Below, in pieces: positions 50,715-54,506 of a DNA stretch of 64,000 nt; position 1 is the stretch's first letter, and each line of letters starts with the position of its first letter. This DNA is from Nocardia wallacei (lineage in GTDB: Bacteria; Actinomycetota; Actinomycetes; Mycobacteriales; Mycobacteriaceae), in assembly GCF_014466955.1 (NCBI RefSeq), contig NZ_AP023396.1, forward strand, positions 1,240,001 through 1,304,000, given 5' to 3'. The position numbers and the translations under genes are program-made. A model generated the notes under the pieces. That model did not search any database, was not told where the DNA came from, and saw nothing but the letters and a program-made list of their open reading frames with translations.

Positions 50715-51977
50715 GTGAACCGACACCCCCGCCGGATCGCTCTCGCCGCGCTGATCCTGTCGGTCCTGGCCCGCATGTTGTGGATGCTGTTGGCGCCCAA
50801 CGGAATGAACCTCGTCGACCTGCACGTCTACGTCGACGGCGCGGCGAGCCTGGGCAGCGGCCACCTATTCGACTACACCTACGCGGAGAAGACGCCCGAC
50901 TTCCCGCTGCCGTTCACCTATCCGCCGTTCGCGGCCGTGGTGTTCTATCCGCTGCATTTCCTGCCGTTCACGCTGGTCGCGGTGGCCTGGTTGCTGCTGA
51001 TCGCGGCGGCGCTGTACGCGGTGGTGCGGATCAGCTTCGCGATGCTGCTCGGCGCGGCGGCGCGGGAGAGCCGCTGGCGCACGGCCGCGATCGGCTGGAC
51101 CGCGGTGGGACTGTGGCTGGAACCGACCCGGACCACCATGGACTACGGGCAGGTCAACGTGTTCCTGGTGCTGGCCGGGATGGCCGCCGCCTACTACACG
51201 GCCTGGTGGCTGTCCGGCCTGCTGGTCGGGGTCGCGGCCGGGGTGAAGCTGACGCCCGCGGTCACCGGGCTGTATTTCCTCACCCAGCGGCGGTGGGCGA
51301 GCGCCGTGTGGGCGGCGGTGGTGTTCGCGGCGACGATCGGGGTGAGTTTCGCGATCTCGCCGGGGGAGACGCGCACCTACTTCGGCCCGCTCATCGGTGA
51401 CGCGAACCGGATCGGCCCGGTCGGCTCGGTGTGGAACCAGTCGCTGCGCGGCGCACTGACCCGCATCCTCGGCTACGACGCGGGCGCGCCCTGGCATATC
51501 GGCGGGCATCGGGTGCCGTTCGGGCCGTGGTGGCTCGGCGGGGTGGTCGTGCTGGCGGTGCTGGCCTTGTTCGCCTGGCGCGCACTGGAATTCGGCGATC
51601 GGCTGGGCGCGCTGCTGGTGGTGCAGTTGTTCGGGCTGCTGGTGTCGCCGATCTCCTGGTCACATCACTGGGTGTGGCTGCTGCCGGTGGTGCTGTGGCT
51701 GCTGTACGGGCCGCTGCGCGAGGTCGCGGGCGCGCGGATCCTCGCGGGCTACTGGCTGGTGACCACGCTGATCGGACTGCCCTGGGTGCTGTCGTTCGCC
51801 CAGCCGACCATCTGGACCATCTCCCGGCCCGGCATCCTGTCCTGGCTCGGTGCGGTCGACGTGATCGGCGTGGTCGTGTTCTATCTCTGGCTGATCCGGG
51901 CCGGGCGGCGGCGCGGGCTCAACTCTCCTGCGCCAGCCGATCGATCGCGCGTGCCAGTTCCACATCCAGGCGGGTGA
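50715..51977 (+). CDS. pimE: Polyprenol-phosphate-mannose-dependent mannosyltransferase PimE
   Basis: A 420-residue GT-C glycosyltransferase with about ten membrane helices. It adds the fifth mannose to phosphatidylinositol mannosides (PIM4 to PIM5) on the outer side of the membrane. The catalytic acidic residues lie in the first loop (VDLHVYVDGAAS); PDFPLPFTYPPFAAVV and GVKLTPAVTGLYFL are further family features. GTG at 50715 gives a start directly before the first helix; an upstream in-frame start would add 63 unlikely residues. Its 3' end overlaps the convergent pterin dehydratase gene by 59 bases. The neighbour order matches M. tuberculosis Rv1159. Confidence 0.88.
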   Translation: MNRHPRRIALAALILSVLARMLWMLLAPNGMNLVDLHVYVDGAASLGSGHLFDYTYAEKTPDFPLPFTYPPFAAVVFYPLHFLPFTLVAVAWLLLIAAALYAVVRISFAMLLGAAARESRWRTAAIGWTAVGLWLEPTRTTMDYGQVNVFLVLAGMAAAYYTAWWLSGLLVGVAAGVKLTPAVTGLYFLTQRRWASAVWAAVVFAATIGVSFAISPGETRTYFGPLIGDANRIGPVGSVWNQSLRGALTRILGYDAGAPWHIGGHRVPFGPWWLGGVVVLAVLALFAWRALEFGDRLGALLVVQLFGLLVSPISWSHHWVWLLPVVLWLLYGPLREVAGARILAGYWLVTTLIGLPWVLSFAQPTIWTISRPGILSWLGAVDVIGVVVFYLWLIRAGRRRGLNSPAPADRSRVPVPHPGG

Positions 51978-52212
51978 GCCCGCCCTCGGAGTGCGTCGAC
52001 AGCGTGAAGGTGACGCGGCGCCAGCGGATATCGATGTCGGGGTGGTGGTTGGCCGACTCGGCCTCGGCGGCCACCCGGCGCACCAGCTCGATTCCCGCTA
52101 GGAACGACGGCGCCTCGACGGTGCGGGCGATGCTGTTTCCGGTGTGGGTCCAGTCCGGCAGTTCCTCGAGCGCGGTCCGGATCTCGTCCTCGGACAGTAG
52201 TGGGGTGCTCAT
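51919..52212 (-). CDS. 4a-hydroxytetrahydrobiopterin dehydratase (PCD/DCoH)
   Basis: A 97-residue protein with the pterin-binding signature: ANHHPDIDIRWRRVTFTLSTH contains the HHP triad and a later His. It recycles 4a-hydroxypterins or acts on related cofactors. In M. tuberculosis the homologous Rv1159A also follows pimE. The coding region overlaps the end of pimE on the opposite strand. Confidence 0.92.
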   Translation of the reverse strand: MSTPLLSEDEIRTALEELPDWTHTGNSIARTVEAPSFLAGIELVRRVAAEAESANHHPDIDIRWRRVTFTLSTHSEGGLTRLDVELARAIDRLAQES

Positions 52213-52233: not shown

Positions 52234-52410
52234 CTAGGCCGCACGCGCCTGCTTCAGGTACTTCTTCAGGTCTTTGCCGCAGATCCCGGCGGATTCGGCC
52301 TTCTTCATCCGCATGATCACGACCGGGCATTTCACGCAGCGCGTCTTCTTCCGACAGCACTTCTTCTTAGGCTTCAGGCGCGAGACCTTTTTTGCCTTGA
52401 CCTTGCCCAT
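52234..52410 (-). CDS. 58-residue Lys/Cys-rich protein preceded by iron box
   Basis: A short frame starting at ATG (52410) encodes MGKVKAKKVSRLKPKKKCCR and continues KKTRCVKCPVVIMRMKKAES, then AGICGKDLKKYLKQARAA. Five cysteines (18, 19, 25, 28, 44) and about 18 lysines suggest a nucleic-acid- or metal-binding peptide. The coding frame is free of stops and uses G/C-ending codons. An IdeR/DtxR-type box ends right at the ATG, leaving no ribosome binding site on this strand (leaderless translation is possible). No family was recognised. Confidence 0.68.
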   Translation of the reverse strand: MGKVKAKKVSRLKPKKKCCRKKTRCVKCPVVIMRMKKAESAGICGKDLKKYLKQARAA

Positions 52411-52429
52411 GGAGGTTAGCTTAACCTAA
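52411..52429 (-). promoter_or_regulatory. IdeR/DtxR-type iron box
   Basis: On the minus strand the 19 bases read TTAGGTTAAGCTAACCTCC, matching the IdeR/DtxR consensus TTAGGTTAGGCTAACCTAA at 16 of 19 positions. The palindrome abuts the ATG of the 58-residue gene, so binding of the iron-loaded repressor would block its transcription. It is about 160 bases upstream of typA on the other side and less likely to control that gene. Confidence 0.8.
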
Positions 52430-52589: not shown

Positions 52590-54506
52590 GTGTCGTCTGT
52601 CGAGTTCCGCAACGTGGCGATCGTTGCTCACGTCGACCACGGCAAGACGACGCTGGTCGACGCGATGCTGCGGCAGTCCGGCGCGTTCGCCGAGCGGGCC
52701 GAGCCGGTCGACCGGGTGATGGATTCGGGCGATCTGGAACGCGAGAAGGGCATCACCATTCTCGCCAAGAACACCGCCGTGCACCGGCACAACGCCGACG
52801 GCAGCGTCACCGTGATCAATGTCATCGACACCCCCGGCCACGCCGACTTCGGTGGCGAGGTCGAGCGCGGGCTGTCCATGGTCGACGGCGTGGTGCTGCT
52901 GGTCGACGCCTCGGAGGGGCCGCTGCCGCAGACCCGTTTCGTGCTGCGCAAGGCGCTCGCGGCGTCGCTGCCGGTGATCCTGGTGGTGAACAAGACCGAC
53001 CGGCCCGACGCGCGGATCGAGGAGGTCGTGGAGGAGTCTCACGATCTGCTGCTCGACCTCGCCTCCGATCTGGACGACGAGGCCTCCGAGGCCGCCGAGC
53101 TGGCGCTGGACCTGCCGGTGCTGTACGCCTCCGGCCGTGAGGGCAAGGCCTCCACGCAGCGTCCCGAGAACGGCAACGCGCCCGACGCGGAGAACCTGGA
53201 CGAGCTGTTCGACGTGCTGCTGAAGTGCGTCCCCGCGCCCAAGGGCGACGCCGCCGCGCCGCTGCAGGCCCACGTCACCAACCTCGACGCCTCGCCGTTC
53301 CTGGGCCGCCTGGCGCTGCTGCGCATCCACAACGGCACCCTGCGCAAGGGACAGAACGTGGCGTGGATCGCCGCCGACGGCGTCAAGAACGTCAAGATCA
53401 CCGAACTGCTCAAGACCGTTGGGGTGGAACGCAATCCGGCCGAGGAGGCCGTGGCCGGTGACATCGTCGCGGTCGCCGGGATTCCGGACATCATGATCGG
53501 CGACACCCTGGCGGATCAGGAGAAGGTGGCGGCGGGCGAGGATCTCGCGCTGCCGCGGATCACCGTCGACGAGCCCGCCATCTCGGTGACCGTCGGTATC
53601 AACACCTCCCCGCTGGCCGGGCGCAACGGCGGCACCAAGCTCACCGCGCGCCTGGTCAAGGCCCGGCTGGATCAGGAACTGGTCGGCAACGTGTCGCTGC
53701 GGGTGCTGCCCACCGAGCGTCCCGACACCTGGGAGGTCCAGGGCCGCGGCGAGCTGGCGCTGGCGATCCTGGTGGAGACCATGCGCCGGGAGGGCTTCGA
53801 ACTCACCATCGGCAAGCCGCAGGTGGTCACCCGCACCGTCGACGGCAAGGTGCACGAGCCGTACGAGGAGCTGACCGTCGACGTGCCCGAGGAGCACCTG
53901 GGCGCGGTGACGCAGCTGCTGGCCGCGCGCAAGGGCAAGATGGTACAGATGACCAACCACGGATCCGGTTGGGTCCGAATGGAATTCATCGTGCCCTCGC
54001 GCGGGCTCATCGGATTCCGCACCGACTTCCTCACCGAGACCCGCGGCACGGGCATCGCCAACGCCGTATCGCACGGGTACGCGCCGTGGGCCGGGGAGAT
54101 CCGCGCCCGGCACACCGGGTCGCTGGTGTCGGACCGGGCGGGCAGCGTCACCCCCTACGCCATGCTGCAGCTGGCCGATCGCGGCACCTTCTTCGTCGAG
54201 CCGGGCGCCGACACCTACGAGGGCATGGTGGTGGGCATCAACCCGCGCGCCGAGGACCTCGACATCAACGTCACCCGCGAGAAGAAGCTGACCAACATGC
54301 GCAGCTCCACCGGCGACGTGCTGGAGACCCTGGCCCGCCCGATGGTGCTGGATCTCGAAGGGGCCCTGGAGTTCTGTGCCGGTGACGAGTGCGTCGAGGT
54401 CGGCCCCGACGTGGTCCGGGTGCGCAAGGTGATCCTGAACGCCACCGAACGCGCCCGTGAGCTCTCCCGCCGCAAGGCCCGCGACCGCGCCGCCCAGAAC
54501 GCGTAG
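52590..54506 (+). CDS. typA: Translational GTPase TypA/BipA
   Basis: A 638-residue ribosome-associated GTPase. G1 is [13 protein letters not shown]2/G3 include EREKGITI and [11 protein letters not shown], and G4 is [14 protein letters not shown]-like domains follow, and the C-terminal TypA domain is recognisable in [17 protein letters not shown] at 52590 is preceded by AGGAGGA. It adapts translation to stress. It heads the conserved typA-lpqW-mshB block. Confidence 0.97.

Follow-up and report, generated by a model that had tools for sequence, protein, structure and literature searches.

A conserved four-cysteine microprotein gene beside typA in Nocardia, with a putative IdeR-type iron box at its start and a possible part in the release of ferritin iron

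The 64,000-nt stretch of DNA analysed here (hereafter the window; its genus is taken to be Nocardia, as suggested by the named loci among its relatives) carries, next to typA, a 58-codon open reading frame (ORF) whose ATG is directly preceded by an element resembling the iron box of IdeR/DtxR regulators. This raises the question of whether the frame is a gene, whether the box controls it, and what so small a protein would do when iron is short. Judging from codon pattern and homologues, the microprotein is a genuine gene, and the conservation and company of its box make it very probably an IdeR-controlled gene of iron homeostasis. A role in helping ferritin to release iron is proposed more tentatively.

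The 58-residue frame picked out in the initial annotation proved to be a real ORF with an ATG start. When 29 same-genus orthologues were compared with the window sequence over 42 codons, 167, 61 and 423 differences fell at codon positions 1, 2 and 3, respectively, with 350 synonymous versus 182 non-synonymous codon changes; with changes concentrated at the third position, the frame thus behaves as coding. The product contains 17 Lys, 5 Arg and 5 Cys, that is, 22 basic versus 2 acidic residues and a net charge of +20. The five cysteines and the abundance of lysine that had been pointed out are therefore present, but the constant core consists of four Cys, the fifth (C44) being variable. Across 69 diverse members, no variation is seen at K15, C18, C19, R24, C25, C28 or P29; the number of Cys is exactly four in 62 of them, and the net charge ranges from +11 to +22 (median +16).

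No model in Pfam or NCBIfam matched the window protein at an E-value of 10, and distant members gave only weak rows against the family models: all those with a displayed cut-off fell under it, and the best of the others had an E-value of 0.0091. An AlphaFold2 model of the window protein (mean pLDDT 86.5, pTM 0.68) consists of a short helix, an ordered Cys loop and two helices, and that of P0232, a relative of another type (mean pLDDT 85.9, pTM 0.65), of a strand, the Cys loop, a helix, a hairpin and a final helix. Comparison with the PDB by Foldseek / VIA-align yielded no meaningful match for either model. One candidate for the Cys loop was considered and rejected. The iron-sulfur loop of endonuclease III and MutY has the form C-x6-C-x2-C-x5-C, and the C18-x6-C25-x2-C28 spacing of the microprotein resembles it; a scan of 10 distant members also gave a single PF10576 row, below threshold (E 0.051). 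The fourth Cys of that loop is absent, and PF10576 is not among the families matched by the 69 members.

The box, TTAGGTTAAGCTAACCTCC, agrees with the consensus TTAGGTTAGGCTAACCTAA at 16 of 19 positions and abuts the start codon, just as had been reported from the first inspection of the sequence. A published form of the IdeR/DtxR iron-box consensus is TWAGGTWAGSCTWACCTWA (available part of PMC9505556). None of 100 dinucleotide shuffles of the window contained a site with at most 3 mismatches, and the whole 7.9-Mb genome contains only seven such sites, versus none for a backward-read control pattern. Two of the other six precede siderophore-interacting FAD proteins (SIP/FAD_binding_9; L140 and L144), one a Peripla_BP_2 protein (L139), and one an ABC ATPase (L142), while another is found some 200 nt upstream of an NRPS-type thioesterase (L141). 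The sixth (L138) directly adjoins a frame of 155 aa that has no Pfam match, with a PheA-like frame beyond it, and has the same box-at-start layout as the microprotein; the PheA-like label and the NRPS/PKS character of neighbouring frames are our own reading. L139 to L142 all fall within one 38-kb stretch and probably belong to a single siderophore cluster, and hence do not count as independent. In sequence and in position at the start, the box thus resembles those of the IdeR/DtxR regulon, including those of siderophore-uptake-type genes of the same genome with equal mismatch counts. The microprotein itself, in contrast, resembles no siderophore, transport or storage protein.

Two sites in the same genome, one of them that of L138, were seen near ferritin genes. 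The 155-aa frame with the start-abutting IdeR-like box (L138:1501-1520; G000:C1:92801-92819) is located about 3 kb from two tandem ferritins, and a 14/19 iron-box-like site, TGAGGCAAGTATTGCCTAA, stands between two tandem ferritin genes (L243:2196-2214).

Conservation of the box with the gene was measured by taking the 330 nt ahead of the CC codons at each of 199 loci and scoring their best 19-mer against the published consensus; the 199 contain 21 repeats across two locus sets and so represent 178 distinct loci. Scores of at least 14/19 were reached in 131 of the 199 and at least 13 in 154 (114 and 135 of the 178 distinct loci). Dinucleotide shuffling, at 20 shuffles per locus, gave at least 14 in only 27 of 3980 regions and 13 or more in 196. 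Of the 1,225,797 background 19-mers taken from these loci with the repeats left in, none reached 14 and 45 reached 13. Nineteen loci fetched later, on which no shuffles were run, gave at least 14 in 17 cases; their genomes include those of L213 and L219, which the motif search had missed and which stand outside the 199. Among distinct loci, the box scored at least 14 in 60 of 66 from Nocardia (all 66 at 13) and in 54 of 112 from elsewhere, with 10/10, 4/6 and 5/10 in families f14, f21 and f100, respectively (family labels here and below are the tool's own). It is also found in families where the gene has other neighbours.

Within the window's genus, 29 of 30 loci have a box whose end lies 0-1 nt before the start codon, the exception (L022) being a misplaced start call. 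This layout would also fit another explanation, in which the conserved element serves only as the -10 region for a leaderless transcript (TANGCT, then 7 nt, then the start), with no part for IdeR: TANGCT is found at the right distance in most of the 30 loci, and where it is lost (L153, L158 and L163) another TANNNT stays in the left arm. However, both arms of the box are kept in those same loci, and the same long motif stands at other distances, e.g. some 50 nt ahead of the ATG at several loci that resemble those of Rhodococcus and Prescottella. Furthermore, the background 19-mers, none of which reached 14, include the other promoters of the loci. We therefore regard the promoter-only explanation as very unlikely.

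Of 36 genomes from the window's genus, its own counted, 35 have the gene. In the sole genome without it (G034), typA and a PCD-like frame are kept, and the stretch between them contains neither a microprotein frame nor a box (best score 12); this joint loss, a single case, associates the box with the microprotein and not with typA. A single-sequence query found the gene in none of 24 same-order genomes, and a profile search found it in 145 of 201 family, 43 of 150 order and 60 of 296 class genomes, and relatives that share the core CC-x4-RC-x2-CP extend to further families and classes within the phylum. Among the best 80 of 305 matches there are named loci from Nocardia, Rhodococcus, Gordonia, Williamsia, Hoyosella and Mycobacterium, and the widest profile gathered 4959 proteins at an E-value of 0.01, of which the best 120 were viewed. 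On one contig (G704, C233) a pair of microprotein-like matches is separated by about 1 kb, and one of the two holds an in-frame TAG. No paper on the gene was recognised in the literature, which says little about a gene with no name to search by; a Saccharopolyspora copy may stand in the supplementary IdeR target table of PMC8464063. The microprotein is not a member of the IdeR regulon that we know of.

The location beside typA, also remarked on in the initial annotation, holds in Nocardia and its nearer relatives, but the box persists without adjacent typA, and at some loci ferritin takes its place. Within 1.5 kb, and by our own thresholds, the neighbour was divergent typA in 164 of the 199 loci, ferritin in 7 and neither in 28; in five of these 28 that were re-examined, typA was found about 3 kb away (L087 and L094) or lay outside the 3-kb locus (L032, L050 and L051). 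Ferritin neighbours occur at some loci of families f2, f16, f21 and f56, with PF00210 in all four that were examined. At class level, in a search made with one ferritin query at 1e-20, which leaves other ferritin and bacterioferritin types outside it, 29 genomes have both genes and in 17 of these ferritin lies at most 90 bp from the microprotein. The close pairs comprise 16 of the 17 f21 genomes and one f20 genome; 7 are divergent and 10 tandem with the microprotein first, and the box before the microprotein scores at least 14 in 16 of the 17 (10 in L205). By eye, frames resembling a Fur-type regulator and a ferritin were seen in the vicinity of a microprotein gene of family f35 (L192). In three Gordonia-type loci (L103, L122 and L161) a palindrome-like GTGAGATCGCGATCACA, which we take to resemble a CRP/GlxR site, is found upstream of the microprotein, between it and typA.

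Table 1. Features of the microprotein locus, in window coordinates
Feature	Position	Strand	Basis or remark
Basic Cys4 microprotein ORF, 58 aa	52234..52410	-	ATG start at 52410; ORF list, homologues, codon-position pattern
Codons of invariant core C18-C19-x5-C25-x2-C28-P29	52324..52359	-	Invariant residues in 69 members
IdeR/DtxR-type iron box TTAGGTTAAGCTAACCTCC (putative), abutting ATG	52411..52429	-	16/19 match, kept across lineages
Possible -10 element TAAGCT of a leaderless promoter, within box, 7 nt before ATG	52418..52423	-	Read by eye; similar layout in orthologues
typA/bipA, divergent neighbour	52590..54506	+	Divergent to microprotein in 164/199 loci
Putative PCD-like ORF, 97 aa, downstream neighbour	51919..52212	-	ORF list; similar frame in G034

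Taken with these neighbours, the box suggests how the gene might work. When iron is plentiful, Fe-loaded IdeR would sit on the box, covering the -10 region and start of a probably leaderless Nocardia transcript, and block it. Since the box extends across the start region, repression is implied in Nocardia, and repression by iron is what a box touching the start codon would predict. When iron falls, the microprotein would be made, its CC-x5-C-x2-C site could bind a metal or a small Fe-S centre, and the protein may dock on ferritin and aid iron release, as the unrelated ferredoxin Bfd does for bacterioferritin. We put this complete account (an IdeR-regulon Cys4 protein, induced by low iron, acting in iron handling by helping ferritin to release iron) forward tentatively, with a chance that falls somewhat short of even. 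A bolder form, in which this phylum-wide, IdeR-controlled microprotein, beside typA in Nocardia and its relatives, is the missing partner that mobilises ferritin iron in starvation, a Bfd analogue of independent origin, seems to us rather improbable.

The opposite sign of control was also considered, in which IdeR acts on an activating or dual site, so that iron-loaded IdeR would turn the gene on and the protein would help to load iron into ferritin. Iron-loaded IdeR activates mycobacterial ferritin genes, and both the adjacency to ferritin and the ten tandem pairs, in which the box precedes first the microprotein and then ferritin, would fit such a site. A protein bound 0-1 nt before the start codon, as at 29 of 30 same-genus loci, should however block initiation, and we consider activation unlikely; where the box precedes a microprotein-ferritin pair, either sign of the response is conceivable.

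The Bfd-like part in iron release is favoured by the ferritin neighbourhood and the Cys4 core. Bfd, the bacterioferritin-associated ferredoxin (PMC12363616, in the part available), resembles the microprotein in its small size, its Cys cluster, a gene that in some families, though not in the window's genome, lies beside a ferritin gene, and expression at low iron, which for the microprotein is predicted. The differences are that the microprotein has its Cys, as CC-x5-C-x2-C, in one short loop, is very basic, and neighbours another ferritin type (non-heme, by our reading).

The initial annotation had named a metal chaperone, an RNA-binding regulator and a ribosome-associated factor as candidate roles. 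Size, charge and the company of typA keep a second role in play beside the Bfd-like one, that of an iron-sparing protein acting through RNA, with the Cys site sensing metal or stabilising the fold. The models here are FbpA, FbpB and FbpC, Fur-regulated basic proteins of Bacillus subtilis, of which FbpB (48 aa) is a suggested RNA chaperone (accessible text of PMC7430163). The microprotein shares with them, as far as sequence features tell, a length near 50 residues, a basic composition and an iron-repressor box, and in most loci it is divergent to typA, the gene of a ribosome-linked GTPase. It differs in its repressor, the box being of IdeR type, and in its ferritin neighbourhood in some families. 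Moreover, the family-model scans gave no convincing match to a nucleic-acid-binding family, with nothing beyond weak rows; the box is kept at loci without adjacent typA; and an iron-sparing role of this kind has no need of four invariant Cys. We judge it a conceivable but rather unlikely explanation. A metallochaperone, a zinc-knuckle protein or a small DNA-binding protein without any link to ferritin appears unlikely; the predicted helix and beta hairpin of the P0232 type do recall half a winged helix, with weak Foldseek rows to winged-helix regulators, and the gene order at the ferritin loci is what such a protein would leave unexplained.

A number of observations weigh against ferritin-directed, IdeR-controlled iron release. 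As regards control, the initial annotation had suggested looking for box and frame together in Nocardia, Rhodococcus and Mycobacterium. They are conserved together in Nocardia and well beyond, but Mycobacterium-type loci (six named loci and eight whose genus is taken to be the same) keep the gene and have a box of at least 14 in none of 14, so that they apparently hold the same gene under different control. The box is likewise missing from both Aldersonia loci, scores at least 14 in one of seven Gordonia-type loci, and does so in one of five distinct named Rhodococcus loci (four of five at 13). Dyad partners of the box covary no more than in column-shuffled controls, so that conservation and company, and not compensatory change, carry the case for the box. 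The window's own genome encodes two DtxR-family regulators, and a 13/19 site stands immediately ahead of the start of its only Nramp gene; at the background rate, about 1% of 330-nt regions reach that score. Nramp being a possible MntR target, reading of the box by the manganese regulator, or a shared reading, is conceivable; sites as good as that of the microprotein, however, stand mostly at siderophore-type genes, which makes IdeR the likelier reader.

As regards ferritin, the microprotein of the window's genome is not beside a ferritin gene. By the same one-query search, ferritin gave no match in 31 of the 60 class-level genomes that carry the gene, including all 16 of f100, and 25 class-level genomes have ferritin but no microprotein. 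In the tandem pairs a repressing box would repress ferritin also, although ferritin is usually iron-induced. Finally, no Fer2_BFD match was found, either for the window protein in Pfam at an E-value of 10 or among the 15 families matched by the 69 members. Apart from these points, we observed that in two Mycobacterium-type loci (L154 and L155) the match to the microprotein and that to typA are separated by some tens of bp, and no box is present; typA is found in 13 of the 14 loci of this type.

If the proposal holds, a conserved, uncharacterised family would join the iron regulon of the Actinobacteria, a group whose iron control is much studied, and gene order already ties the family to ferritin in several families. 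To our knowledge, how Actinobacteria recover ferritin iron, and whether a protein arm of the iron-sparing response exists, are open questions, and one small gene makes both directly testable. From what its sequence and surroundings suggest, the microprotein looks like an overlooked part of actinobacterial iron handling.
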